From: Oligoflexia bacterium
GTDB lineage: Bacteria; Bdellovibrionota_G; JANQFH01
NCBI GenBank assembly: GCA_028277945.1
Contig: JANQFH010000056.1
Coordinates: 62,001 to 126,000, forward strand
DNA: 64,000 nucleotides
Direction: 5' to 3'
A program made the translations under genes and the position numbers. Below are positions 1,226 through 14,060 of the stretch, one piece after another (within the stretch, counting starts at the first letter, position 1; every line of letters begins with the position of its first letter). Under the pieces are notes generated by a model. It saw only the letters and a program-made list of their open reading frames with translations. It had not been told where the DNA came from and ran no database searches.

Positions 1226-1906
1226 ATGGCAACAGCAAACAAACCATTGGTCATCGTTTTAGACAACAACGCCTCAGATCGTGCCTTTGTCAAATTCTAC
1301 CTCGACCGGAACGGCTACCGTACCTTACTCGCACATGACTGGTCTGAGGCTAGGTTACTTCTCGAATACCTCAATCCAGATCTGTTTATTGTAAACGCAC
1401 TCTTACCTGATCAAAACGCCTTGCAAATCTGTCAGAACATCCGCGACCACCACAGGGACGATGAGTTGCAAATCTTACTACTCATGGAGGTTGATCGAGA
1501 TCCCTCAGCTGCAAAACAGGCGCAACAAGTTGCACGAGCAAACGCCGTGCTACAAAAACCACTCGATCAGTGGGCGCTTATCCATGTTGTTAAAGAGCTA
1601 ATCGGTGGTTCGCTGCAGCCAATCTCCGAAGAAAAGACTACGGAACCCGTGAACTATGAGATGTCCAGGAAGGCCTATGTGCACCTATTAAGCTGTTTTG
1701 ATGTTTCTGCAAAACAGTGTCTTAAACTTCTTGCCTATCATAACACCATGCTGCCATGGCAATGGTCATCGCTGTTTGGCAATTTTCTAGCGCACTCGCG
1801 CAACAGCCTAAAGTCCGTTGATCTTGACCAAGATTACTGTAGCCAAGCAGTATCTAAAATTACCTCAGATATCTTGCGGGCCCACAAGGTTGCTCTTACT
1901 TATTAA
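1226..1906 (+). CDS. Pseudo-receiver protein with unknown C-terminal domain
   Basis: 226 residues. Residues 7-128 keep a receiver fold: strand 1 LVIVLDNN, strand 3 PDLFIVNALLPD and the strand-5 Lys in LQKPL. The phosphoacceptor Asp is replaced by Asn at about residue 57, and the acidic pair near residue 13 reads DN, so normal phosphorylation is not expected. Residues 140-226 form an alpha-helical domain I do not recognise. The start is fixed because strand 1 begins within ten residues of the ATG and no other start lies nearby. It is the first gene of a three-gene run with the Hpt protein (1938) and a canonical receiver (2332). It may act as a phosphorylation-independent docking or regulatory partner; this is inference. 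Confidence 0.8.
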   Translation: MATANKPLVIVLDNNASDRAFVKFYLDRNGYRTLLAHDWSEARLLLEYLNPDLFIVNALLPDQNALQICQNIRDHHRDDELQILLLMEVDRDPSAAKQAQQVARANAVLQKPLDQWALIHVVKELIGGSLQPISEEKTTEPVNYEMSRKAYVHLLSCFDVSAKQCLKLLAYHNTMLPWQWSSLFGNFLAHSRNSLKSVDLDQDYCSQAVSKITSDILRAHKVALTY

Positions 1907-1937
1907 ATAGTAAAACCAATAAGGAAGGGAGGACAGC

Positions 1938-2321
1938 ATGTTTAAGACAGCGGATCGAATGGAATCAACACCCGTGCAACAGCCTACAAGATTGCCTGTC
2001 ATAGACTGGGACGATGTCATGAATCGCATTGGCGGTGACATGGACTTCTTGAAGGAGCTCGCCGGTATTTTTTTAGAAGACTATCCGATGCTAATTACCA
2101 ATATTCGTCAAGCCGCCACAGAATCCGATACCGTCAAGCTGAGCAAAGCAACACACACGCTCAAGGGAGCCATTGGCAACTTTGGCGCTCCTTTAGCTCA
2201 TGCTGCGGCCGTCAGCTTGGAGACAGCTGCTGATGAGGGCGCTCTTGGCAATATCGATAATGCCCTTTCAGGACTTGAGAGCGAAGTTGAGAAGGTCATC
2301 GAAGTTCTTAAAGAGCTGTAA
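1938..2321 (+). CDS. Histidine phosphotransfer (Hpt) protein
   Basis: 127 residues, with a strong Shine-Dalgarno (GGGAGG) 6 bases before the ATG. After a short variable N-terminus, residues 25-127 form a helical Hpt domain. The signature ATHTLKGAIGNFGA puts the phosphorylated His at residue 73, followed by the usual Lys-Gly. Hpt proteins carry phosphate between receivers in multi-step relays. The gene lies between the pseudo-receiver and a canonical receiver and opposite a hybrid kinase, a layout that fits a cytoplasmic phosphorelay. Which kinase loads it cannot be read from the sequence. Confidence 0.9.
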   Translation: MFKTADRMESTPVQQPTRLPVIDWDDVMNRIGGDMDFLKELAGIFLEDYPMLITNIRQAATESDTVKLSKATHTLKGAIGNFGAPLAHAAAVSLETAADEGALGNIDNALSGLESEVEKVIEVLKEL

Positions 2322-2331
2322 TCATTGAGAG

Positions 2332-2730
2332 ATGGATAACATGACTGAAGCAGCAAAGACCATACTGGTTATCGACGACGAGAAGCTTGTATGCAAAATG
2401 ATGACGCGCGTTGCTAACACGCTTGGTTACGATGTCATTACTTGTACCAGTAGTGCTGCAGCTCTTAGAGCATTCACTACCATGCACAAGTCCATAGGTC
2501 TGATCATCATCGATCTTGTTATGCCAGATATGTACGGTACCGATTTGTTGTCTGAACTACGGGCTATCAATCCAAATGTGAAAGCACTGATCTCCTCGGG
2601 CCTTTCCAATCAAGAAAGTCAGAAAATGGAATACTCAGAAACGACAGGGTTTATCCAAAAACCCTTTACCATTTCTGAGATTTCAGCGAAGATTCATCGC
2701 GCGCTTAACGTGGCAGAGGTTTCACACTAA
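2332..2730 (+). CDS. Single-domain response regulator (CheY-like)
   Basis: 132 residues, a lone receiver. It has the acidic pair DD at 15-16, the acceptor Asp at about 61 in IIIDLVMPD, the Ser-Ser-Gly of strand 4 and the conserved Lys in IQKPF. No output domain follows, so it works as a phosphate shuttle or by protein contact. An alternative ATG lies three codons downstream (2341). It follows the Hpt gene by 10 bases, so the two are probably cotranscribed from the sigma-54 promoter at 1195. Its stop overlaps the stop of the convergent NtrC-type gene by 4 bases. Confidence 0.88.
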   Translation: MDNMTEAAKTILVIDDEKLVCKMMTRVANTLGYDVITCTSSAAALRAFTTMHKSIGLIIIDLVMPDMYGTDLLSELRAINPNVKALISSGLSNQESQKMEYSETTGFIQKPFTISEISAKIHRALNVAEVSH

Positions 2731-4211
2731 ACAACACCGCGTTGGTTTTCCGACACTTCTCTTGCCTTTACCTTTTTATTGGCTGCGCTGTACTCTTCTT
2801 CGTTCGCTAAACTTCTATATGGCGACGCGTCAATCGCGCTCTGATTCATCAACTTCTTAAAGTTACTTCGCTCCATACCTGCTATGGCGGCAGCTTTGGT
2901 AATGTTGCCTTTGGTTGTGGTTAACAGCGTATCGATGTAGCCCCGGGTCAATTTGAGTACGGCTTCACGTTTTGCCTCTTTATAAGTTAGGTAATCGCCA
3001 CTGCCGGCCTTTTTTGGGTCGAACATCTGCCCGGTCGATTTGAGTAGGTTCGTCGGTAGAACCGCCGTACTTAAGGTAATACCCTTCTCTAAGATCACCG
3101 CACGTTCGATGGCATTTTCAAGCTCGCGCACATTACCAGGCCAACTGTAGTTGTATAGAAGTTGCATCGTTGCACGGTCGATGCCTTCTATCTGCTTACT
3201 ATTTCTCTCATTGTACTTCTTAATAAAGTGCATCACTAAGAGGTCGATATCTCCCTTGCGTTCCCGCAAAGGCGGCATGCTAATATTGATGACGTTTATA
3301 CGATAGTATAAGTCCTCACGGAACTTACCCTGTTCAACCAATTTATCGAGCTCCTTATTCGTGGCAGCAATGATACGCACATCCACACGACGCACCTCCG
3401 AGCTGCCCACAGGAATGATCTCTCCTTCTTGCAACGCACGTAGCAACCTTACCTGGGTGGTCTGCGGAATCTCACCAATTTCATCCAAAAACAGGGTGCC
3501 GTGGTTGGCAGCCTCGAACAATCCGCGTTTATCACTAAACGCACTCGTAAAAGCACCCTTAACATGACCAAAAAGCTCACTCTCAATCAAGGACTCTGAC
3601 AGCGATGAACAGTTGCAGGCCAAAAACGCACGCTCGCTACGGGCACTGTTAAAATGTACGGCACGGGCAACCAGCTCCTTACCCGTACCGCTGGCGCCTT
3701 CAATGAGAATCGTAGCATCACTATTTGCCACATCCCTTACGGTTCTAAAGACCCGCTGCATTTCTGGGCTTGTACCAATAATATTTTCAAACCCATACTT
3801 GTCTTTGAGGTCCTTTTCGGCGTTACTGAGCCGTTTGACCATCTCTCGGTGTTCAACTGCTTTTTTGATGGCAATAGGTACAACGTCAATATTTTCAAAG
3901 GGTTTTGTAATAAAATCAAAGGCTCCCAGTTTTACAGCTTCAATCGCATCTTCAATGGTTGCATAGGCTGTCATCATAATAACCTCAGCCTGTGGCGCCC
4001 TAAGCTTAAAGTCTTTCAGCAAGTCCATACCTGAAGCGTCATCAAGACGGATATCTAGGAGCACGACATCGAAGCTCTCTGTTTGTAACTTTTCTATAGC
4101 CTCTTGGCCTGAATGCGCTAACTCCACCTGGCACTCAAGAGTCTTGGTAACAACCTTCTTTATCGACTGAGCGACAATCTGATCGTCATCAACGACTAAA
4201 ATACTGTTCAT
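2727..4211 (-). CDS. NtrC-family sigma-54-dependent response regulator
   Basis: 494 residues. Receiver at 1-120 with acceptor Asp53. AAA+ domain from about 143 to 380 with Walker A GASGTGKE (172-179), Walker B GTLFLDE (238-244) and an Arg-rich sensor region. C-terminal helix-turn-helix around 430-465 (ITKAAAIAGMERSNFKKLM). The sigma-54 contact loop reads GAFTSA (219-224), not GAFTGA; such variants exist in the family, but the change is worth noting. A poorly conserved 30-residue tail follows the HTH. It overlaps the upstream H-box gene by 23 bases, so both are made together. It is a plausible activator of the local sigma-54 promoters that carry the 21-base element (inference). Confidence 0.92.
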   Translation of the reverse strand: MNSILVVDDDQIVAQSIKKVVTKTLECQVELAHSGQEAIEKLQTESFDVVLLDIRLDDASGMDLLKDFKLRAPQAEVIMMTAYATIEDAIEAVKLGAFDFITKPFENIDVVPIAIKKAVEHREMVKRLSNAEKDLKDKYGFENIIGTSPEMQRVFRTVRDVANSDATILIEGASGTGKELVARAVHFNSARSERAFLACNCSSLSESLIESELFGHVKGAFTSAFSDKRGLFEAANHGTLFLDEIGEIPQTTQVRLLRALQEGEIIPVGSSEVRRVDVRIIAATNKELDKLVEQGKFREDLYYRINVINISMPPLRERKGDIDLLVMHFIKKYNERNSKQIEGIDRATMQLLYNYSWPGNVRELENAIERAVILEKGITLSTAVLPTNLLKSTGQMFDPKKAGSGDYLTYKEAKREAVLKLTRGYIDTLLTTTKGNITKAAAIAGMERSNFKKLMNQSAIDASPYRSLANEEEYSAANKKVKAREVSENQRGVV

Positions 4212-4893
4212 GACTTTTGCTCCCTTCCTCTCTTGTATCCTGGACTGGCAAGATACAAGTACACTCTATAAAAGCACTGTCGGTTTTCTGCCACTTTACG
4301 GCACCGCCCATGGTGTGGGCGATCTCTTTACACAACTGTTGATGCTCGGGATCAACCATACGATCTGCGCTCGTCTCTACCTTGATGTAGGCTTCAACTG
4401 CCTCATGCTTTGGCTTGAAGACAAGGCATAGTGAAGAACCCGGCTTGATGAAACCATAAAGGCCAAGAATGACCTGTAAGATCAGATGCGTGGATTCGTA
4501 CATGGGTATAGAAAAGTCACCCATTTCTTCGGGCATCGAAGTCGTTAGAGTAACCCGATTATGCTTAAGCAGATATTCGAGTAATTCTTGGGTGTGATTA
4601 CAAACTAGAGCTGCAGAGGCAAAATGTGGTACTGTTTTACCGCCAACACGAGAAAAATCCAAGACACTTTTCATTCTCTTTATGCAGGTAGAAAGACACT
4701 CATCGGAATCCTCCAGGGTTTCCTTGAGCTCTTTGTCAAGTGACGCATCGACCAGTGCCAACTGTAAGTTGGTACGGGCGCCGCACAGTAAGTTGTTCCA
4801 ATGATGCAGAAATCCCGGCATCATGACGCCGAGAAGCGCTGCTTTGGCGAGTTCTATAGATGAAAGCCCTGATCTCATGGTTGCAGGTCCCAA
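4189..4893 (-). CDS. HisKA-like protein without a recognisable ATPase domain
   Basis: 234 residues. Near residue 30 MPGFLHHWNNLLCGA resembles the H box of NtrB-like kinases (HDFNNLL), followed by a second long helix as in a dimerising HisKA hairpin. The rest should be the HATPase domain, but I see no N box (NAxxA) and no DxGxG or GxGxG loops; only short hydrophobic strands remain. It could be a degenerate kinase, a ChpT-like phosphotransferase or a dedicated phosphatase for the NtrC-type regulator, whose start it overlaps by 23 bases. It has its own extended -10 promoter upstream. Function is uncertain. Confidence 0.65.
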   Translation of the reverse strand: MGPATMRSGLSSIELAKAALLGVMMPGFLHHWNNLLCGARTNLQLALVDASLDKELKETLEDSDECLSTCIKRMKSVLDFSRVGGKTVPHFASAALVCNHTQELLEYLLKHNRVTLTTSMPEEMGDFSIPMYESTHLILQVILGLYGFIKPGSSLCLVFKPKHEAVEAYIKVETSADRMVDPEHQQLCKEIAHTMGGAVKWQKTDSAFIECTCILPVQDTREEGSKSHEQYFSR

Positions 4894-4972
4894 TTAAAGT
4901 TGCTTTGGGGCTTTTAAAAAACCTGTACCTGAATGAGACGGGAAATTAAGGGGGGTGGTTATTATTAAACAT

Positions 4973-4981
4973 ATTATAGCA
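4973..4981 (-). promoter_or_regulatory. Extended -10 promoter for the H-box/NtrC operon
   Basis: On the minus strand TGCTATAAT is a perfect extended -10 (TGN followed by TATAAT), about 80 bases before the ATG at 4893. No good -35 is seen at 17 bases, as is common for extended -10 promoters. Confidence 0.5.
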
Positions 4982-5062
4982 TACTTGGCAATCTTCTTTT
5001 GCGCTCGGAGCTCGGCCGGGAGGCTGAAAGATCCGCCTAGATTATATAACTATTTGAAATAA

Positions 5063-5470
5063 TTATAGTATTTGCATAGCACGGGAGATACGCTGGCTCA
5101 CGTAACCCGGTTTATAAAGATCTTCACAGAGTAGAAAATCGTCCACACCACACTCTACCAGCCGCTGGATGGCGTTGGCATGCTGTTGGGATTCGGTGAC
5201 CGCCACCACGGGAATATGACTCCACTGCGGATTCTCCTGAATCCTCTTATAGAACTCCAGGCCAGGGCTGTAGAGCATGCTGTCGTTGGTCAAAATCAGC
5301 CTTGGCAACTTCTTGTAGTGCTCCATAAAGGCGGCTGCTAACTGGTTGGAGGCGGCTACGACAATATCGTAGCCGAGAGGCAGCAGTGCCTGACGATACA
5401 TGGCGTTGAGCGCTGGAATGTCGTTAATCACCAAAATGAATTCATCGGGTTGCCACTGTCTGGTTGTCAT
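5063..5470 (-). CDS. Pseudo-receiver (degenerate CheY-like) protein
   Basis: 135 residues from the ATG at 5470, which has a strong GGAGG five bases upstream. A GTG at 5563 opens a longer frame, but a near-perfect sigma-54 promoter (5513-5528) lies inside that extension, so 5470 is preferred. Receiver-like strands are visible (FILVINDIPAL, PRLILTNDSML, PVVAVTES). The acceptor position reads Asn at about 62 (ILTND) and the strand-1 acidic pair reads ND, so phosphorylation is doubtful. It lies downstream of the kinase gene 5790-7583 but has its own promoter and 21-base element. It is the second Asp-to-Asn pseudo-receiver in this sigma-54 set. Confidence 0.78.
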   Translation of the reverse strand: MTTRQWQPDEFILVINDIPALNAMYRQALLPLGYDIVVAASNQLAAAFMEHYKKLPRLILTNDSMLYSPGLEFYKRIQENPQWSHIPVVAVTESQQHANAIQRLVECGVDDFLLCEDLYKPGYVSQRISRAMQIL

Positions 5471-5512
5471 AACTCCCTCCAATTCCACTAGGCGAGGCGC
5501 ATAACGAGAATG

Positions 5513-5528
5513 AGCAACATCTGTGCCA
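5513..5528 (-). promoter_or_regulatory. Sigma-54 promoter for the 5470 pseudo-receiver
   Basis: Minus strand TGGCACA-GATG-TTGCT matches the consensus at nearly every position, with GG (5526-5527) and GC (5514-5515) 10 bases apart. The predicted start is about 5502, which gives a 32-base leader that contains the GGAGG before the ATG at 5470. Confidence 0.8.
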
Positions 5529-5618
5529 GCTACTAAGCCAGAGTCGCAGTCTTGGTATTTCACAAAATTCCTTTTATTCCAAATAGTTAAAAAATATGAG
5601 CAAGACGGGTTTAACCAA

Positions 5619-5789: not shown

Positions 5790-7583
5790 CTAGTGGCGTA
5801 GGCGGTGCAGCTGTTCTGCCTCCACGGTGTGTGAATCCACAACATCGCCGTAGAGCTCAGCCACAGCCCCCTTAGCAAGCGGTAGGTGCACGACAACTGT
5901 AGTACCCACGCCCTCTTCACTCTGCACCTCTATGGAACCATCATGGCTTTCACAGATCTCTTTGATCACGGACATGCCTAGCCCCATGCCACGAAATCGA
6001 CTGTTGTCTTTGGTGGTGGCAAAGTCATCAAAGATCGACTTCAGCCTCTCTTTGGCAATACCACAACCGTTGTCCTTGATAGCAATCTGCGCCATAGAGG
6101 TTGGCAACTGCTGTTTTACCTGAACCTGCAGATAGCCCCCATGTGGATTTTCGCTCATCGCCTGAATGGCGTTCTCAAAGATGTTGCTAAGCATGCGGCG
6201 AATGGCCAACATATCTCCTAAGACCAAGGTCGGAGATTTCTCGCCGACAAACTCTACCTGAACATGTTGTCTATTCAGACTCTCCTTAAAGCTATCTAAA
6301 ACCTGCCCGATCTCGGCATCGATATTCAACGCAATCTTGACCAAGCGTTTCGGCCTTGCCAAATCACGCAAACGTGTCACCAAATAGTTCAAGCTCTCAA
6401 GCTCGCGCTGCATGACTTCGTGAAAGTGCTCTCTAAAACCCGCATCATCATACTTCTTTGTCAGTAGATCACTGTTGAGCTTTAGATTCTGAATTGGGTG
6501 TTTGAGATCGTGTGCCAGGGCTGCGGCAATACGACCAAAAGCTGCGGCACGCTCACGTGTGGCTAACTCACCTTGCAACTTGTCAAGGTCATCACCCATC
6601 TTGTTGAAGGCATCTGCAAGGCGCGCCAACTCATCCCTACCACTTACCGGAACCTTATAATCGAGCTCACCCTTGGCCAAATGCTGTACCCCTTCCATAA
6701 GCTTCTCCACCGGCTGCACAAGGCTTTTCCCACCCAGGTAGCCGACAAAAACAGCCACAGCCAACACGAGAACAGAAATGAGGCTAAGCGCGAGCACAAT
6801 GTAGCGCGCACCGGCAAAAGCCTCTGAGAGAGGCTGTTGCACCACCAGCCGCCAACCCGTAGCACTAACCGTGGCAAAGGACTTGAGCACCTGCTCCCCC
6901 CAGACGTTGTGCGATGTCGCAAAGATGGGGGTTAGATCCTGCTGTTGCAATACCAACGGTTTGCCACGGCGATCCCCGTGCGCAATGAGCTGCCCGGCCG
7001 TATCGATGAGCAGGCCATTGCCTGCCTTGCCAACTCGTATGGTGTCGACAATCTCCCATAGATAGAGCATATTCATGTTAGCCAGCAGTACGCCGACACT
7101 CTTGCCTCGCTGTAAGACAGGCACACCAATAACCAGTTTGGGCACAAGATCCTCGGCAATCACCATGGGTGAGCGGTAGGCGCGCCGCTCATGCAGAGCA
7201 TACTGAAATGCCTGTTGGTAGGGGTCGAGGTTGACCTCATCCAGCTCTGAGCTGACGACCAAATCTCCCCTACTATCGACGAGCATCACCGACTCTAAAG
7301 AGGGGAAGCGAATGACATGGTTGCGCACGATGGTCTCTTTTTGCCATGGGCTTAAGCCAACGCGCTCAATGTTTTGCGCCAAAGAGTAGAGCAGCGCCAC
7401 CTCTTCTTCGATATAGCTGTTGATCCGCTGGGCAGCAATACGGGCCAGCTGCTGGTTGTGCTCCTCAATGGCTTGACGTGTGGAAATATAGGACCACACC
7501 GTGGCAATACCGCCAATCAGGATGAGTGGCAGCATGGAGGTGAGCAAAAACAGCAGCATGAGTTTGTGGGAGATCTTTTTCAT
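5790..7583 (-). CDS. Membrane sensor histidine kinase with Cache-type periplasmic domain
   Basis: 597 residues. A first membrane helix (about 9-30) is followed by a periplasmic region (31-260) whose pattern fits a double Cache sensor. A second helix (261-284), a HAMP linker (285-338), a HisKA domain with LAHDLKHPIQNL (His near 358) and a HATPase domain with N box NIFENAIQAM, DNGCGI and GMGLGM follow. It is a complete, apparently active kinase. Its ATG overlaps the stop of the solute-binding lipoprotein gene by 4 bases (ATGA), so the two are translationally coupled and likely work together: the lipoprotein captures a ligand and presents it to the sensor. The most likely partner is the NtrC-type regulator at 11296 (inferred from neighbourhood). 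Confidence 0.9.
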   Translation of the reverse strand: MKKISHKLMLLFLLTSMLPLILIGGIATVWSYISTRQAIEEHNQQLARIAAQRINSYIEEEVALLYSLAQNIERVGLSPWQKETIVRNHVIRFPSLESVMLVDSRGDLVVSSELDEVNLDPYQQAFQYALHERRAYRSPMVIAEDLVPKLVIGVPVLQRGKSVGVLLANMNMLYLWEIVDTIRVGKAGNGLLIDTAGQLIAHGDRRGKPLVLQQQDLTPIFATSHNVWGEQVLKSFATVSATGWRLVVQQPLSEAFAGARYIVLALSLISVLVLAVAVFVGYLGGKSLVQPVEKLMEGVQHLAKGELDYKVPVSGRDELARLADAFNKMGDDLDKLQGELATRERAAAFGRIAAALAHDLKHPIQNLKLNSDLLTKKYDDAGFREHFHEVMQRELESLNYLVTRLRDLARPKRLVKIALNIDAEIGQVLDSFKESLNRQHVQVEFVGEKSPTLVLGDMLAIRRMLSNIFENAIQAMSENPHGGYLQVQVKQQLPTSMAQIAIKDNGCGIAKERLKSIFDDFATTKDNSRFRGMGLGMSVIKEICESHDGSIEVQSEEGVGTTVVVHLPLAKGAVAELYGDVVDSHTVEAEQLHRLRH

Positions 7584-9223
7584 GGTTGAGTCGCTATCTT
7601 GGCACTCTGTCCCTGCCAGTCCTCATCAATATACCACTGGGTTATATCACCCCAGAAGTTGCCAGGGTTGATATCAGCCCCTTTTACACGAGCGTGTAAG
7701 GCGACGTGGATCTTCTTCCAATAGAGGAAGATTCCCGGCGGCTCTTCAAACAGCTGCTGGCTAAAGGCCTTGAGAAAATCCTCTCTTTTAGCAAAGCCTC
7801 CTGCAGCATGCTTTTGGAAAAGGCGGGACATCTTCGCGTTTCGATAAGGAAAGAGCGATTCTTCGCCTCCGGAAAAGTACCGGTGAAGGCTAGCAGGTTC
7901 TGAATAGGCTCGTGAGTAGATATGAAACAGGTGATCATTTGTCAATTTTACATTCTCCATCATCTTATCTAATTCCACAGTTCTAACGGCAAGGCGAATT
8001 CCTATCTCCTGAAGATGGGCTTGCACTGCCAACATCAGCTGTTTAGATTCAGCATCACCTTGGAAGGCGACTGCCTGGAGCTTGAAAACTTTATTGTCCT
8101 TTTTAAGCTCGTTTTTGACGCGGTCGTAGTGAAACCCACTCTGTTGCAAAAGTCGTAGTGCTCGCTCAGGATCATAGGGATAGGGCGTAATGCCTCTACC
8201 ATGTGAAACCAGGTCAGGATTCATAATGCCGCTGCTGAGCTCAGCATCACCTCGTAACACTCGCTCAATGATCGCCTCTCTATCCACGGCTAAATTGAGC
8301 GCGCGCCGCACACGCACATCCTGTAAATCCTCGTTGTTCATGTTAAAAACAAGCATGTAGAAAAAGTTGTTTTGAAAGGAGACAACCTGCAGATGTGGTT
8401 GATCCTTAGTAATCCGTTTTTCATCACTGTTAAGATACCAAAACACATCCAAATCAGAACGCATGAGCTGCGTCCACGCCAACTTTTTGCTCTTGAGGGC
8501 TGTAAAGGAGATTTGGTTGATCTTTGGTTTGCCTCCCCAATAATTCTCGTGACGCTTTAGCAAAACATGGTCAGAGGACCACTTTGCAACCCTATAAGGC
8601 CCCGTGCTATTAATGAATTGAGAGGGCTCTGCTTTCTTATTGCATGGATTGTCTGATGTAGGAACGACGGCTATGGCAAGACCAAACCATACAGGCTGCG
8701 CTCCTTTCTCTAAATAGAGAGCGATTTCTCTCTCATTGAGCACTGCAACTCTCTTGATGGATTGCAGACGAGAGTACGCCCAAGAACCTGTGGACTCCTG
8801 CATGGCACACTCGAGCGATGCCCTAACATCCGCTACTGTGAGTGGTTGTCCATTGTGGAACTCAACACCTGATTTTAGCTTAACTCTCCATATATCAAAG
8901 TCGTCAGATGAATCATCTAAGGATATCTCTTGTGCAAGCATTGGTTGGAAGGTTCCATCTTTAGCAAAATCCATTAGGCCTTCGAAAACAAAAGACAGAA
9001 TGTGGGAGCTGTAACCGCTTATTCGAGTAAATGGATCTAAGGGCTCAAAGACTCCAAGGGTGCCAACACGCAGAGTGTTTGAAGGCGGGACTAGAACGTT
9101 CTCTTGCGCCTGCTTCCCTTGAGGCTTCTCCATGGAACAGCTGCACAGAAGCAGTAAGGGAAGTAATACTTTGAAAATTCTAGACCGCCTACACCAAGGC
9201 CTTTTTTTCTGCGATCCTGACAT
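7580..9223 (-). CDS. Family-5 extracellular solute-binding lipoprotein (peptide-binding type)
   Basis: 547 residues. The N-terminus has a basic stretch, a Leu-rich helix and a lipobox LCSC, so Cys29 is probably lipidated. The remainder fits the OppA/DppA class of ABC solute-binding proteins: LRVGTLGVFEPLDPF, WRVKLKSGVEFHNGQPLTVADV, YDPERALRLLQQSGF. No permease or ATPase gene lies nearby, so import is not its obvious job here. The 4-base overlap with a sensor kinase and the position just after a candidate modified-peptide gene suggest a periplasmic peptide receptor for signalling (inference). The start near 9223 is supported by the signal sequence directly after it. Confidence 0.88.
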   Translation of the reverse strand: MSGSQKKRPWCRRSRIFKVLLPLLLLCSCSMEKPQGKQAQENVLVPPSNTLRVGTLGVFEPLDPFTRISGYSSHILSFVFEGLMDFAKDGTFQPMLAQEISLDDSSDDFDIWRVKLKSGVEFHNGQPLTVADVRASLECAMQESTGSWAYSRLQSIKRVAVLNEREIALYLEKGAQPVWFGLAIAVVPTSDNPCNKKAEPSQFINSTGPYRVAKWSSDHVLLKRHENYWGGKPKINQISFTALKSKKLAWTQLMRSDLDVFWYLNSDEKRITKDQPHLQVVSFQNNFFYMLVFNMNNEDLQDVRVRRALNLAVDREAIIERVLRGDAELSSGIMNPDLVSHGRGITPYPYDPERALRLLQQSGFHYDRVKNELKKDNKVFKLQAVAFQGDAESKQLMLAVQAHLQEIGIRLAVRTVELDKMMENVKLTNDHLFHIYSRAYSEPASLHRYFSGGEESLFPYRNAKMSRLFQKHAAGGFAKREDFLKAFSQQLFEEPPGIFLYWKKIHVALHARVKGADINPGNFWGDITQWYIDEDWQGQSAKIATQP

Positions 9224-9344
9224 TTTTAACTACTTGAAACTATGTGCTTTTTATACAGTGGCGCACTGATACAAACATGCGTCAGAGGATTTCTATAAAC
9301 ATGTAGGTTATAAGTAGGGAGAAGTGGGTGGGATGTCAAGCAGA

Positions 9345-9387
9345 CCACCCCACAGCCGCATGGTTTTAGCCGTGGGCTGTGGGGTGG
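9345..9387 (-). repeat. Strong 13-bp hairpin between peptide and binding-protein genes
   Basis: CCACCCCACAGCC (9345-9357) pairs perfectly with GGCTGTGGGGTGG (9375-9387); part of the 17-base loop can pair further. It lies about 40 bases after the peptide stop and about 120 bases before the lipoprotein gene start. No U-tract follows on either strand, so a simple intrinsic terminator is unlikely. A role in holding the 3' end of the peptide mRNA or lowering downstream expression is inference. Confidence 0.7.
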
Positions 9388-9425
9388 ATAAGCAGATCTC
9401 TACACCTTAACGGTGCGTATGCGGA

Positions 9426-9533
9426 TTAAACAGGACCTTCACCACAACGTGGCCCGCCGGTACCACCACCACCTGGCTGGCGCTCCTGGCGACGACGGCT
9501 GTCCTTACGGATTACCTTGCTCTTTGCTTCCAT
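9426..9533 (-). CDS. Candidate RiPP precursor peptide (35 aa, Arg-rich leader, Gly-rich core)
   Basis: An ATG at 9533 is preceded by a strong Shine-Dalgarno (AAGGAGG, 6 bases before the ATG). The frame encodes 35 residues and ends with TAA. The first half is basic (four Lys and six Arg among residues 4-18; MEAKSKVIRK, DSRRRQER). The second half is QPGGGGTGGPRCGEGPV, Gly/Pro-rich with a single Cys at position 30. There is no signal peptide. It lies 115 bases downstream of a radical SAM/SPASM maturase on the same strand, the classical arrangement for a ribosomally made, post-translationally modified peptide. I do not recognise the family. The chemistry of any modification and the export route are unknown; no exporter gene is adjacent. 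Confidence 0.75.
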   Translation of the reverse strand: MEAKSKVIRKDSRRRQERQPGGGGTGGPRCGEGPV

Positions 9534-9604
9534 GACGATCCTCCTTTATCGGTCAATCCTTGAAGGATTAGGGAACTATTCAGCTTTTAAGGAGGCTTGT
9601 TGTG

Positions 9605-9632
9605 GCAGGGCAATTTTGGCAGGGTGCCCTGC
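9605..9632 (-). repeat. Competing stem-loops between maturase and peptide genes
   Basis: GCAGGGCA (9605-9612) can pair with TGCCCTGC (9625-9632). Alternatively GCAGGG (9619-9624) pairs with CCCTGC (9627-9632). The stems exclude each other and lie in the leader of the peptide gene. This could be an attenuation or processing structure; no U-tract is seen. Confidence 0.4.
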
Positions 9633-9648
9633 TTAGACAATAATAATG

Positions 9649-11037
9649 TTAAGCTGTTCGCTTAATAGGACTCTTTTGCGGCTCTTCCTTTGGCTCGAGT
9701 AGCTCAGAGGGCTTCACGCCACCTCCGTGCGTACCGGCCTCGAGTTGCAGCAGCGTGGGTACGGTCTTTTCAAAAAACTCACCCGAGCATTGAAAGGCGC
9801 TGTAGTCGCCCTTTTGTTTGAATACTGCCCAGCGGCAGCCACCAAAGCAGCCGGCTAGGTTCTTGCAGTCCCCACATGTAGGGTGGTCTATGGCGTTATA
9901 GCTCATGACCTTATCGTAGTTCTCATTGTAACCCGTATGCACATTGCCTATGGAGGCGCGTTTGTCCCCAGCAAAGGCACCACAAGGGTAGATGTCACCA
10001 AGCGGATCAATGGAGATAGCGTGCTCGATTAGAGCCTCACAAGGACCAGCAACAACCCGGCGTTGGCTACGCAGGTTGCGCTGTTGCAGCTCCTTTTCAA
10101 TGCGCAGATAACCGCTCATGTCGCCTTCTCCTAAGTAGGCGATCGCATCTGCGGTCTCTTTGGTGCCGGCATTCATGATCGGCTTAAAACCGAACTTACG
10201 CACAGAGTTGTCCAGACCCTCGTCACGCAGGTAGTCGAGCAGTTTAAAGATACTCTCAACCGCTTCAGGATCGTTCTGATCATAATTGCCTCCGAGGGTG
10301 AAAGAGGTAAGCACCCCTATTTCCTTCAGGTTTTTTAAAATAACCTCAAAGCTACCCCTTCCACCTCTCAGAGGCCTTTGCTTGTCATGCCTCTCTTTGT
10401 CACCATCAAGGGTGATCTTAATGCGTTTAAGCCCAAGCTCTTTCAGCTCGGCGTAGAGTTCTTTTTTAAGATGAAAACCATTGGTGATCAGACCAAATTC
10501 AAAACGGCGGTTGTTTGCCATGCAGAAGTTGCGAAACTCATGGATGAGATAAAACAGCGTCTCTTGTTCAATGAGGGGCTCACCCCCAAAGAAGGTAACG
10601 TCCAACTCGGGAAAGTCCTTGGAAAGCATCATCTCGCGTGTCCACGCCACCACCTCTTGTTGTGTCTCTGGCTTCATGCGCACATTGCCTAAGTACTCTG
10701 CTTCAAAGCAGTAAGGGCAGGCAAAGTTGCAGCGATAAGAGAGCAGGATGGTAAGTGGCAAGGTCTGGGTCTGCTTGGTGTGGGCGTCATACCACTTGCG
10801 CAACTCATCTTTTTCATCAAAGAGATGGTTAACGAGGAAGCTCTCCTCTTTCATGATGCGCAACTCTTTGGGATAGTTCTTTAGGATGGTTTCATCGCCA
10901 GCCTTGAGCGCATCAAAGAGCTCGGTGGGAATCTGCATCAGGCTGTCGGCAAAACTGTTGTAGATCAGGCTCATATCGCCTGCGGCAGAGGCGATGCCTC
11001 GTTGGACTTCGTATGTGTAGCGGGATAGAACCTGCAC
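9649..11037 (-). CDS. Radical SAM/SPASM peptide maturase
   Basis: 462 residues, GTG start. Residues 5-40 (RYTYEV, LIYNSF) form the N-terminal region seen in SPASM-type peptide maturases. The radical SAM cluster motif CNFACPYC (Cys103, 107, 110) and GGEP (151-154) are present. The C-terminal SPASM domain has the full seven-Cys pattern: C-X12-GX4C at SIDPLGDIYPC, then CGDCKNLAGCFGGC (CX2CX5CX3C), then the last Cys at 417. Such enzymes bind auxiliary iron-sulfur clusters and crosslink or otherwise modify peptides or proteins. The 35-residue peptide at 9426-9533 is the obvious substrate candidate. A sigma-54 promoter lies just upstream, with a predicted leader of only about 5 bases. anSME-like sulfatase maturation is less likely because no sulfatase is nearby. 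Confidence 0.9.
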   Translation of the reverse strand: MQVLSRYTYEVQRGIASAAGDMSLIYNSFADSLMQIPTELFDALKAGDETILKNYPKELRIMKEESFLVNHLFDEKDELRKWYDAHTKQTQTLPLTILLSYRCNFACPYCFEAEYLGNVRMKPETQQEVVAWTREMMLSKDFPELDVTFFGGEPLIEQETLFYLIHEFRNFCMANNRRFEFGLITNGFHLKKELYAELKELGLKRIKITLDGDKERHDKQRPLRGGRGSFEVILKNLKEIGVLTSFTLGGNYDQNDPEAVESIFKLLDYLRDEGLDNSVRKFGFKPIMNAGTKETADAIAYLGEGDMSGYLRIEKELQQRNLRSQRRVVAGPCEALIEHAISIDPLGDIYPCGAFAGDKRASIGNVHTGYNENYDKVMSYNAIDHPTCGDCKNLAGCFGGCRWAVFKQKGDYSAFQCSGEFFEKTVPTLLQLEAGTHGGGVKPSELLEPKEEPQKSPIKRTA

Positions 11038-11052
11038 AGCGCCCGTGTTATA

Positions 11053-11068
11053 AGCGAAACTCGTGCCA
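11053..11068 (-). promoter_or_regulatory. Sigma-54 promoter for the maturase/peptide operon
   Basis: Minus strand TGGCACG-AGTT-TCGCT: the -24 half is a perfect consensus and GG (11066-11067) is 10 bases from GC (11054-11055). The predicted start is about 11042, five bases before the GTG at 11037. The two palindromes at 11120 and 11201 lie 53-150 bases upstream, a normal enhancer distance. Confidence 0.8.
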
Positions 11069-11119
11069 AAAGTTATAGTGTTGATTTAATTAGATTGTTT
11101 CAGTGATTGTGCTGATCAA

Positions 11120-11141
11120 AGTGGCCAAGAAATTGGCCACT
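11120..11141. promoter_or_regulatory. Palindromic enhancer-like site 1
   Basis: AGTGGCCAA, four bases, TTGGCCACT: a perfect 9-bp inverted repeat. Its core TGGCCAA-N4-TTGGCCA recurs at 11201-11218. The arrangement fits dimer binding by an NtrC-type activator, for which the obvious candidate is the regulator encoded next to it at 11296. Confidence 0.75.
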
Positions 11142-11200
11142 CCCAGTCCATGGAAAGCAAGCTACTTGTTACTACATGTAAAAATTGCCATAGCCGATGA

Positions 11201-11218
11201 TGGCCAAGATCTTGGCCA
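11201..11218. promoter_or_regulatory. Palindromic enhancer-like site 2
   Basis: TGGCCAA-GATC-TTGGCCA, a perfect 7-bp inverted repeat with the same core and spacing as site 1. The centres are 79 bases apart. Paired sites of this kind allow activator oligomers to form upstream of sigma-54 promoters. Confidence 0.75.
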
Positions 11219-11221
11219 ACT

Positions 11222-11256
11222 GGACAACATCTCATCCGCATATCTTTAGGTTGTCC
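11222..11256 (+). repeat. Inverted repeat upstream of the NtrC-type gene
   Basis: GGACAAC (11222-11228) and GTTGTCC (11250-11256) are separated by 21 bases, about 40 bases before the ATG at 11296. It could be an operator with half sites three helical turns apart or a weak leader hairpin; nothing decides between these. Confidence 0.35.
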
Positions 11257-11295
11257 CATTGCCAGTGAGCCTAAAAACCGGTAAGGGAAAAGAAC

Positions 11296-12705
11296 ATGAG
11301 CCGCACCCATTTCAACATCTTAGTGGTCGATGACGACCGCAGTCTGCTTTCCACCATGGAGATCATCCTCAAAGATCATGGCAAGATCTCTGTCGCCAAT
11401 AGCGTGACACAGGCGAGAGAAATCCTGCAAAAGCAACCCATGCAGCTGATTTTTCTTGATATCCTGCTTCCTGACGGCAATGGCCTTGAGCTTTTGAAGG
11501 AGATCAAGGAGAGCCATCCAGCCACAGAGGTCGTCATGTTAACCGCCATCAAGGAGATCGATCGGGCGGTTGATGCGATCAAAAACGGGGCTCACGACTA
11601 CTTGACCAAAGACTTTAGTCCTGAAGAGATCCACATCTTAATCGACAAGATCCACCAAAAGCAGAGACAGCAGCGAGAGCTGACATTTTTGCGCTCGGAG
11701 GTTGCTGAAATGACCAACAAGGAGATGATCCTTGGTGATGGTCCCAAGAGTCGAGAGATTCGCGAGCTTCTTGCCAAGGTGGCCAACCTACCAGCAAGCG
11801 TGCTTATTGAGGGAGAGTCCGGTACGGGCAAGGAGCTGCTCGCACGGGCGATCCATAGTCAATCGCCACTGCGGGAGGCGCCCTTCATTACCATCCATGT
11901 CGCCTCGCTGCCAAGCAACCTTGTCGAATCTGCTCTCTTTGGCCATGAAAAGGGAGCGTTTACCGGAGCTACGCAGCAACGTCTTGGCAAGCTGGAGCTG
12001 GCAGATGGTGGCACGCTATTTCTTGATGAGGTGGGAGAGATCCCTGAGGATACACAGATCAAACTACTACGCTTTTTACAAGAGGGAGAGATCGAACGGA
12101 TTGGTAGTAACCGTACAATCAAACTCAACGTCAGGATCATCGCGGCAACCAATCGCGATCTCCTGCAACTGGTTAAACAGGGAGGTCTACGCCAAGACCT
12201 CTTCTACCGCCTCAACACCATTCCAATAAAACTACCCCCTCTACGGGAGCGCAGAGAGGATATCACCGCACTCGTGAATCTCTTCCTCAAGAGGTATTGC
12301 AACAACTTTGGTAAAAACCCAATGTGCCTTAGCAACACCGCTCTAAAAACACTCATCGCCTACCCTTGGCCAGGCAACATCCGTGAACTCGAGCACCTCG
12401 TCGAAAGGCTTGTGGCTATTCATGATAAAGAGAGTATCGATGAGCTCGACATACCGCTGGAATATACGTTGATGGGAACCGAGGCGTTGGATGAAATAGA
12501 GCAGCAGGCTGGAAAGCAGGCAAACGGTGACTACCTTAAAACCGCTACAGCGATCTTTGAGCGCAACCTCATTGACAAAGTCTTACAGAAAACCGGTGGT
12601 AACCGTACAAAAACGGCAAAGCAACTCGGTATTCCCCTAAGCACCCTGAAATTCAAGCTGCAGAAGCTCGGCATCAAGAAAAAGCATAAAGAGCTAGCAG
12701 AATAG
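11296..12705 (+). CDS. NtrC-family sigma-54-dependent response regulator
   Basis: 469 residues. Receiver 1-125 with acidic DDD at 12-14, acceptor Asp55 (IFLDILLPDG) and Lys105. AAA+ domain about 145-385 with Walker A GESGTGKE (173-180), canonical GAFTGA loop (220-225), Walker B GTLFLDE and the Arg-finger region LRERREDI. A Fis-type HTH lies at the C-terminus (GNRTKTAKQLGIPLSTLKFK). All key residues are intact. The gene is divergent from the maturase/peptide operon, and the space between them holds a sigma-54 promoter plus two palindromes, so it is the likely direct activator of that operon. Its likely kinase is the Cache-type kinase at 5790 (inference). Confidence 0.93.
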   Translation: MSRTHFNILVVDDDRSLLSTMEIILKDHGKISVANSVTQAREILQKQPMQLIFLDILLPDGNGLELLKEIKESHPATEVVMLTAIKEIDRAVDAIKNGAHDYLTKDFSPEEIHILIDKIHQKQRQQRELTFLRSEVAEMTNKEMILGDGPKSREIRELLAKVANLPASVLIEGESGTGKELLARAIHSQSPLREAPFITIHVASLPSNLVESALFGHEKGAFTGATQQRLGKLELADGGTLFLDEVGEIPEDTQIKLLRFLQEGEIERIGSNRTIKLNVRIIAATNRDLLQLVKQGGLRQDLFYRLNTIPIKLPPLRERREDITALVNLFLKRYCNNFGKNPMCLSNTALKTLIAYPWPGNIRELEHLVERLVAIHDKESIDELDIPLEYTLMGTEALDEIEQQAGKQANGDYLKTATAIFERNLIDKVLQKTGGNRTKTAKQLGIPLSTLKFKLQKLGIKKKHKELAE

Positions 12706-12752
12706 CACGGCTCACCTATATAATAGATGAAACCTCAAACTGATTAGACGTT

Positions 12753-13130
12753 ATGGACAAGAGACGCACCATCCTCGTGGTTGATGACGAAACAGCCCTG
12801 GCAAGGACTTACGATCGCATCCTATCAAGAAAGGGTTTCGACGTGGTGTTGGCGGATTCTTATGAGAGTGCGGTGGCAGCACTTGAGGAGAAGCCGATCG
12901 ATTTGGTCATCACCGATCTCGCCCTGCCTGGCAAGAACGGTATTGAATTGATGCGCACCATTCGTGAGGATAAACGCTGGTCAGAGCTGCCGATCATCGC
13001 CCAGTCTGGATTTGGCCAACAGATGCAAAAGGAGGTCTTGGCGCTCATGCCGCTACGCCTCTTCCAAAAACCAGTCCCTATGGATGAGCTGGTAGAGATC
13101 ATTGAAGCGGCCTTCAATCCAAATGATTAG
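12753..13130 (+). CDS. Single-domain response regulator (CheY-like)
   Basis: 125 residues, a lone canonical receiver: DD at 11-12, acceptor Asp55 in VITDLALPG, Ser in strand 4 (AQSGFG) and the Lys in FQKPVP. There is no output domain. It follows the NtrC-type regulator by 47 bases on the same strand. A TATAAT-like hexamer in that gap could give it a separate transcript, but no -35 is convincing. It could act as a phosphate sink or competitor in the peptide-sensing relay; this is inference from position only. Confidence 0.88.
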   Translation: MDKRRTILVVDDETALARTYDRILSRKGFDVVLADSYESAVAALEEKPIDLVITDLALPGKNGIELMRTIREDKRWSELPIIAQSGFGQQMQKEVLALMPLRLFQKPVPMDELVEIIEAAFNPND

Positions 13131-13350: not shown

Positions 13351-13366
13351 CGGCACGATTCTTGAT
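13351..13366 (+). promoter_or_regulatory. Sigma-54-like promoter for the 13404 lipoprotein
   Basis: CGGCACG-ATTC-TTGAT: the -24 half is near consensus (GG at 13352-13353). The -12 keeps TTG but has A where C is usual. The predicted start is about 13377, leaving a 27-base leader that contains GAGGAGGAG before the ATG at 13404. Confidence 0.55.
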
Positions 13367-13403
13367 TACTTCTTCTCTGTCAGCAGGCAAGAGGAGGAGA
13401 CCC

Positions 13404-14060
13404 ATGAGGGTAACAGCAACGACAAAACAGCACAGCATGGTCCAACTGCTCAGCCTTTCGCTGATGTCGCTTACCCTGGTTGGCTGTGGCATTCTCCCCG
13501 CTCCTGCAGAAAATGACACCTTTAGTTGGGAAGAGCTGCCCATCACCTATTACATTTCCGAAGAGATGCCAAAAGAGGCTCAAGAGGAGATCCATGCTGC
13601 GTTTGCTGAGTGGGAAGCGGGTCTCAATGAGGATGCCTTTGAATTTGGTGGCTTGGTTGAGCTGGGTGAAAGTGAAATTGGCAACTCCTACCACGCCGGT
13701 AAAAACGTCATCTTTGCTTCCAGCGAGTCTGGACACATCGAGGCACCTTACGGAGATGGCATTGATGCCATCGCGAGAACCTTTGTTCATGGCGCCAGCA
13801 AAATCCGCGATACCGACGTTGTCTTCTATGAATTTGATCGTAATTACAACATCGGCCGTAAGACCACGGGAGATGTTTACTCTGTCAAGACTGTAATGAT
13901 GCATGAGATCGGCCGTATGCTCTTTGGCGACCGTGACGGCGACGATGCAGAAAGCGTTCTCAACAACCCTATCTATCCGCAAGGCCATGAGCTAGAGAAG
14001 ACCAAGCTCAGCCGCGGCGACATCGATCTCTTCTACGAAGTCTACGGGAACTTAATCTAG
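13404..14060 (+). CDS. Lipoprotein resembling a matrixin-type metalloprotease with a degenerate zinc site
   Basis: 218 residues from the ATG at 13404, which has GGAGG upstream. A TTG-initiated longer frame from 13362 is rejected because it would start inside the -12 element. The signal sequence ends in lipobox LVGC (Cys28). The body follows the matrixin pattern: a helix with AAFAEWE, hydrophobic strands (NVIFASS, TDVVFYEFD), then VMMHEIGRMLFGDRD. Metzincins need HExxHxxGxxH/D. Here the second His is Arg171 (codon CGT, one step from CAT) and the third ligand position is also altered. Proteolysis is therefore doubtful; a binding role or a specialised site is possible. It is the terminal gene of the sigma-54 island. 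Confidence 0.8.
   Translation: MRVTATTKQHSMVQLLSLSLMSLTLVGCGILPAPAENDTFSWEELPITYYISEEMPKEAQEEIHAAFAEWEAGLNEDAFEFGGLVELGESEIGNSYHAGKNVIFASSESGHIEAPYGDGIDAIARTFVHGASKIRDTDVVFYEFDRNYNIGRKTTGDVYSVKTVMMHEIGRMLFGDRDGDDAESVLNNPIYPQGHELEKTKLSRGDIDLFYEVYGNLI

Follow-up and report, generated by a model that had tools for sequence, protein, structure and literature searches.

The locus at positions 5790-13130 of the window, the 64,000-nucleotide stretch of DNA from an Oligoflexia bacterium analysed here, is best read as a dedicated, self-inducing circuit in which a RiPP peptide would be captured and sensed, a reading to which we give somewhat better than even chances. Its genes specify a SPASM radical SAM maturase, a precursor of 35 aa, a binding lipoprotein of family 5 and a kinase with a dCache domain; an NtrC-type activator is encoded divergently, and a receiver protein comes after it. 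These components are of known kinds; their combination, spread and conserved control region are undescribed as far as the literature was searched, and the original prediction, made from the DNA letters alone, likewise knew of no family with this exact set. What the sequences show directly is the set of components, the conservation of their association, and that of the promoter and activator sites. The five genes, from maturase to activator, are conserved as a set, and autoregulation can be read from conserved DNA sites, which supports the view that they act as a single functional unit.

For the chemistry, the export, the identity of the ligand, the contact between binding protein and kinase, the phosphorylation partner and the function, we infer the following scheme. 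The N-terminal domain of the maturase would bind the basic leader of the tiny precursor, and the enzyme, judging from its fold and from the precursor, probably installs a thioether or similar cross-link at the single Cys. The product would exit the cytoplasm through an exporter and be captured in the periplasm by the family-5 lipoprotein, which, once loaded, would be sensed by the dCache kinase. The kinase would then phosphorylate the NtrC-type activator, whose binding to paired GGCCAA-N4-TTGGCC sites would switch on the sigma-54 promoter of the operon comprising the maturase, peptide, binding protein and kinase genes.

Components of the locus

The original prediction had claimed a radical SAM/SPASM maturase, a 35-residue peptide, a family-5 lipoprotein without permease genes, a Cache kinase coupled to the latter by an ATGA overlap (present at 7580-7583), a complete divergent NtrC-type regulator and, between the divergent genes, a sigma-54 promoter with paired palindromes, all of which were recovered. 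On the minus strand, the order of transcription is maturase (11037-9649), peptide (9533-9426), solute-binding protein (SBP; 9223-7580) and kinase (7583-5790). The features are as follows.

5790-7583, minus strand: sensor histidine kinase (597 aa) with dCache_1, HAMP, HisKA and HATPase_c domains (Pfam)
7580-9223, minus strand: family-5 solute-binding lipoprotein (547 aa), SBP_bac_5 (PF00496; Pfam, 218 bits), with lipobox LLLLCSC
9345-9387, minus strand: strong RNA hairpin between the peptide and SBP genes (fold of -44 kcal/mol for 101 nt, z = -5.9; no U-tract)
9426-9533, minus strand: 35-aa RiPP precursor MEAKSKVIRKDSRRRQERQPGGGGTGGPRCGEGPV (translation; AGGAGG ribosome site; leave-one-out profile)
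9649-11037, minus strand: radical SAM/SPASM peptide maturase with a Radical_SAM domain, 11 Cys including CxxxCxxC and the SPASM set, and a predicted N-terminal RRE-like leader-binding domain (domain search, alignment, AlphaFold2)
11053-11068, minus strand: sigma-54 (-24/-12) promoter TGGCACGAGTTTCGCT, about 16 nt upstream of the maturase start codon (motif search)
11123-11138, no strand: putative activator site GGCCAAGAAATTGGCC (exact palindrome; pair conserved in other phyla)
11202-11217, no strand: putative activator site GGCCAAGATCTTGGCC, 79 bp from the GGCCAAGAAATTGGCC site (exact palindrome; pair conserved)
11296-12705, plus strand: NtrC-type sigma-54 activator (469 aa) with receiver (Response_reg), AAA+ domain with GAFTGA (Sigma54_activat) and HTH_8, a Fis-type HTH (Pfam)
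12753-13130, plus strand: single-domain CheY-like receiver, 47 nt downstream of the activator (Pfam)

With regard to the maturase, its GTG start is backed by homology (MQ-x-S), and cysteines C103/107/110, together with C333, 352, 388, 391, 397, 401 and 417, are invariant across 17 homologues. In the AlphaFold2 model, the N-terminus forms strands (8-17, 20-27 and 32-37) and then helices (38-46 and 56-64), and this strand-rich domain sits where leader-binding domains lie. The solved structures nearest to the model, compared whole, are CteB (5why/5wgg), then TigE and SuiB, CteB being a thioether-forming SCIFF maturase. The best curated model is TIGR04280 (geopeptide), with a score of 239.1 bits that lies below the cut-off of 400; it matches all 17 core maturases, the best E-value (1.1e-99) being weaker than what 400 bits would yield. 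A viperin or defence reading, raised by PADLOC viperin models, was rejected, as this radical SAM match is weaker than that to peptide maturases.

The window precursor combines a basic leader carrying KVIRK with a lone Cys located five residues from the C-terminus. In a leave-one-out test, the profile derived from the other loci ranked it first among 828 short ORFs in a 20-kb stretch, with a modest score of 5.5 bits.

The SBP, modelled by AlphaFold2 with a pLDDT of 85, has its nearest solved folds in NikZ (4oet) and AppA (1xoc), and MbnE (5icq) is found among its sequence matches. The nearest structures comprise nickel-binding NikZ/NikA as well as peptide-binding AppA; the family also includes the pheromone-binding PrgZ and the methanobactin-binding MbnE. 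No permease genes were detected in the window or in the core loci, and the set does not qualify as an oligopeptide ABC importer. The window genome (2.86 Mb, 95.6% complete) has 14 permease matches elsewhere, none of them on the 345-kb contig that carries the locus. With no permease gene nearby, the SBP is likely to serve in sensing and not in nutrition. In a published study, some binding proteins encoded next to kinases failed to activate them (PMC11113362), so that adjacency alone is no proof of contact between SBP and kinase.

Conservation across phyla

Relatives of the maturase were found by a search of 385 diverse genomes and by an alignment-based scan of genome contigs, whereas a single-protein scan of the contigs returned none. 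Phylum searches around G000, G018, G019, G134 and G192, with one to five genomes per phylum, added little. The relatives share about 25-35% identity, and their hosts belong to Acidobacteriota, Candidatus Omnitrophota, Candidatus Auribacterota, Myxococcota and several small phyla. The window's own small phylum, with five genomes in the sample, is among the hosts.

The neighbourhoods of these relatives were scanned with the window proteins, in line with the maturase-anchored search proposed in the original prediction. A binding protein was found beside the maturase in 17 loci (the window, L033, L035, L096, L036, L080, L082, L100-L107, L110 and L116), and all 17 are of the SBP_bac_5 type. A kinase is visible in 14 of the 17, the contig ending first in L033, L100 and L107. 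An NtrC-type activator is adjacent in 13; L035 and L096 have another type of response regulator, L080 shows a weaker match, and L102 is cut. Close maturase loci devoid of the peptide or of the SBP/kinase pair, which would speak against the original prediction, were largely not encountered, the elements being present wherever contigs allow. The gene order varies among these loci, an ABC exporter gene adjoins the maturase in L104 and L110, and additional receiver proteins, as in the window, occur in L036 and L033. Alignment of 12 related kinases revealed dCache_1 in 10 and HATPase_c in all of them; the pairing of kinase with activator is argued from their co-occurrence across loci.

In a 63-row maturase tree, the deep branches of which are weakly supported, the SBP-linked maturases form one group with the geopeptide clade nested inside. 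This group took in L112, whose contig ends inside the maturase, and L097, a doubtful member on a long branch. The SBP label requires two changes on the tree versus a mean of 16.5 in shuffles, and none of 500 shuffles required as few. As a core member, L097 was dropped on account of its branch length (3.6) and of the lack of a recognisable precursor.

A small precursor ORF is recognisable beside the maturase in 16 of the 17 SBP-linked loci, nearly always with a ribosome site. The precursors are 20-39 aa long, without a signal sequence; they share a basic N-terminus resembling MKxxVIKK and mostly carry one Cys near their C-terminal end, as exemplified by MKITVIKKATTSKKPSSYCPWMLDELADKKN (L103), MKVIVLKKGVKPEKVCAWFKY (L080), MKVLKIKKVVRQKAVCSWYLY (L036) and MKLTVIRVGKPGPLGCVILR (L035). 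The copy in L107 is degraded, two stops interrupting it. The leave-one-out profile ranked 10 of 17 peptides first and two more second or third; in this test, the assignments in L033, L082, L104 and L116 were inseparable from background. Between L035 and L051, the precursor differs by six synonymous codon changes and one non-synonymous change, and this 6:1 excess argues that the ORF is a coding gene.

The control region

A sigma-54 site lies 16-133 nt before the maturase start in eight loci (the window, L033, L101, L103, L105, L106, L107 and L116), at the same position as in the window in L033 and L116, and at a comparable one in five acidobacterial loci; the background frequency of sites of such quality is 0.04-0.09 per kb on each strand. 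Upstream of sigma-54 sites, GGCCAA-N4-TTGGCC palindromes are present, and the window pair, spaced 79 bp, has counterparts spaced 80 bp (L101), 78 bp (L103) and 82 bp (L107) in three acidobacteria, and 102 bp and 100 bp in L105 and L106, respectively, some copies in these pairs carrying one or two mismatches. Clear copies are also seen in L112 and L116. The palindromes are absent from L033, though its sigma-54 site is strong, and the control sites are absent from L035 and L096, where the response regulator is of a different type.

In the 2.86-Mb genome, the exact GGCCAAN4TTGGCC motif occurs in two copies, both at the window locus. Single-mismatch palindromes that were inspected all lie inside ORFs (13/13), 12 of them without a nearby sigma-54 site, and inspection of the sites in this genome revealed no further UAS-linked target beyond the operon itself. 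As exact sites occur only here and the inspected near-matches fall inside ORFs, the activator most probably serves the maturase operon alone, which speaks for autoregulation and against an extensive direct regulon. With regard to the self-driven, quorum-sensing-like loop put forward in the original prediction, its self-driven part is thus strengthened by the conserved five-gene set and by the autoregulation seen in conserved DNA sites. The term "quorum sensing", however, exceeds the evidence, given that no exporter gene (nor leader peptidase) is evident at the window locus and that the inspected sites include no UAS-linked target besides the operon. "Autoinduction" is the safer term, and a control of group behaviour by the peptide is unsupported.

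Related systems and other readings

The sister geopeptide loci, hosted by Nitrospirota, Myxococcota and Thermodesulfobacteriota, resemble the window locus in several respects, namely, the maturase, for which TIGR04280 is the nearest model, a short precursor with an aliphatic leader, an extracytoplasmic binding protein and, in three loci (L111, L113 and L114), a kinase and an NtrC-type protein. They differ from it in that the window maturase reaches 239 bits against the cut-off of 400, the precursors of the geopeptide loci examined contain CC whereas the window peptide has a single Cys, and an ABC_sub_bind protein takes the place of SBP_bac_5; the one geopeptide kinase scanned for domains carries sCache_4. 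That related maturases are accompanied, at the equivalent position, by binding proteins of two unrelated families strongly hints that the role of these proteins is to bind something linked to the peptide. Literature searches (geopeptide, TIGR04280, and radical SAM with solute-binding protein and kinase) returned a description of neither circuit.

The best-described cases of signalling by modified peptides come from Gram-positive bacteria. We tentatively propose, at somewhat less than even chances, that the loci represent a new peptide-signalling class in several mostly uncultured phyla, built from a radical-SAM-modified micro-peptide, a dedicated lipoprotein, a Cache kinase and sigma-54, and for which at least two binding-protein families (SBP_bac_5 and ABC_sub_bind) would have been recruited. 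If true, such a class would endow phyla with periplasmic lipoproteins, mostly uncultured, with a peptide-based language whose synthase, receptor and promoter are defined, and would account for orphan family-5 and ABC_sub_bind binding proteins next to kinases. The finding also places uncharacterised geopeptide maturases in a context, and yields 16 precursor sequences, a promoter and a 16-bp operator.

The main rival to the self-inducing circuit, which we regard as unlikely, is a methanobactin-type metallophore, i.e. an exported peptide that would bind a metal and return, the SBP holding the loaded form and the kinase reporting the metal supply. The methanobactin system (MbnA, MbnE, MbnT and MbnM) likewise joins a RiPP to an OppA/AppA-related binding protein. 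Its maturation is ensured by MbnB/MbnC, not by a radical SAM enzyme, and a kinase/NtrC pair is not known from its operons; MbnB/MbnC were found neither among the operon genes nor among the neighbouring genes scanned. The precedent for this rival is MbnE, a periplasmic relative of OppA/AppA to which Cu-methanobactin binds once the TonB transporter MbnT has taken it up again (PMC7558416). In its favour are also the place of MbnE among the sequence matches of the SBP, the nickel binders among the nearest folds, the Cys of the precursors, and the TonB receptor genes that flank L036, L082, L104 and L110 and are present at several geopeptide loci (L113, L114, L084, L115 and L109). However, the window genome, at 95.6% completeness, contains no TonB plug domain and no TonB receptor, most of the precursors contain just one Cys and lack an evident set of metal ligands, and no metal transporter adjoins the operon. 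Furthermore, direct sigma-54 autoactivation through a kinase is an unusual wiring for metal starvation.

Two other readings fit the co-inheritance less well. It is improbable that the SBP and kinase detect a peptide or nutrient of environmental origin, or a competitor product, with the RiPP as a response, for instance an antimicrobial, and the loop unclosed. Family-5 proteins do bind many di-/oligopeptides and other solutes, and the SBPs show little conservation (17-24% identity with the window SBP, versus 22-33% for the kinases), but a varying peptide ligand would equally produce rapid SBP divergence. Besides, maturase, precursor, SBP and kinase are tightly co-inherited with no fixed nutrient-uptake gene, and the only recognisable exact target sites are those of the circuit's own promoter. 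Cytoplasmic processing of the peptide into a cofactor for redox reactions or catalysis, in the manner of PQQ, with the SBP and kinase genes as mere neighbours, would suit the very short precursors without signal sequence and the lack of a fixed exporter gene, but is highly improbable, as the association with SBP and kinase persists at about 25-35% identity despite rearranged gene order, and the maturase of the sister clade is accompanied by a different SBP family.

The self-inducing circuit has partial parallels elsewhere. In the Vibrio LuxP-LuxQ-LuxU-LuxO pathway, a secreted signal is relayed by a periplasmic binding protein to a kinase, the chain ending at an NtrC-family sigma-54 regulator, and this arrangement from binding protein to kinase to regulator is that proposed here. 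The Vibrio signal is AI-2 and not a peptide, LuxP is not an SBP_bac_5 protein, and the output consists of small RNAs and not of the synthase operon. The GRRM system (GrrA/GrrM/GrrP) shares with the window locus a RiPP, glycine-rich in that case, a SPASM maturase and an orphan periplasmic binding protein; a kinase/NtrC pair is not known to be part of it. TIGR04262, the model of the GRRM orphan binding protein, is absent from the complete NCBIfam list (12 families) of the window SBP. Streptococcal RaS-RiPPs (streptide etc.) and clostridial SCIFF ranthipeptides are likewise short peptides modified by radical SAM/SPASM enzymes and linked to signalling between cells (PMC13361665, PMC8102284), and CteB is the solved maturase nearest to that of the window. 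In the streptococcal case, by contrast, a separate SHP is the signal, sensed intracellularly by Rgg, and there is no SBP-kinase pair or sigma-54 circuit.

The original prediction had omitted two elements of the locus, namely, the CheY-like receiver (12753-13130, plus strand) and the hairpin at 9345-9387. RNA families and tRNAs were searched for in the window, and none was found. As the hairpin is devoid of a U-tract, it is more likely to act as an mRNA stabiliser or attenuator than as a full terminator, according to the predicted fold.

Binding proteins and outer-membrane receptors

The geopeptide loci, whose TIGR04280-type maturases form the sister clade, follow the same logic as the SBP_bac_5 circuit with a different binding-protein family. 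An ABC_sub_bind protein is present in L084, L109, L111, L113, L114 and L115, the assignment being confirmed by Pfam in L084, L111, L113 and L115, and is accompanied by a kinase and an NtrC-type regulator in L111, L113 and L114.

Several of these six loci also contain a TonB receptor, which adjoins the maturase gene there and in four SBP-type relatives, in contrast to the genome holding the window, where no TonB plug domain was found across the whole assembly (95.6% complete).

Maturase transcription and neighbouring genes

The sigma-54 site ends just ~16-18 nt upstream of the maturase start codon in the window (11037) and in two SBP-type relatives (L033:6363 and L116:5103). This spacing, found in two phyla, implies that the mRNA has almost no leader.

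Around the operon, further signalling genes, including receivers and an Hpt protein, are densely clustered (1226-5563), and a secreted lipoprotein gene lies downstream of the receiver gene:

2727-4211, second NtrC-type regulator, overlapping the kinase-like gene
4189-4893, kinase-like gene
5063-5563, another receiver, within the cluster
13362-14060, + strand, Matrixin-like (Peptidase_M10) secreted lipoprotein

The latter is conceivably a leader or peptide protease; its gene did not recur as a neighbour among the other loci.

Variant loci

In the SBP-type relative L107 (3300-3480), the precursor is still recognisable but broken by two stop codons (MKI*VVRRASN*KPAGYCDLWVDGPAMNKK); the remainder of the visible locus appears intact. 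Elsewhere, Methanosaeta PtaU1.Bin112 carries seven consecutive SPASM maturase genes on a single strand (L119:8607-17956).
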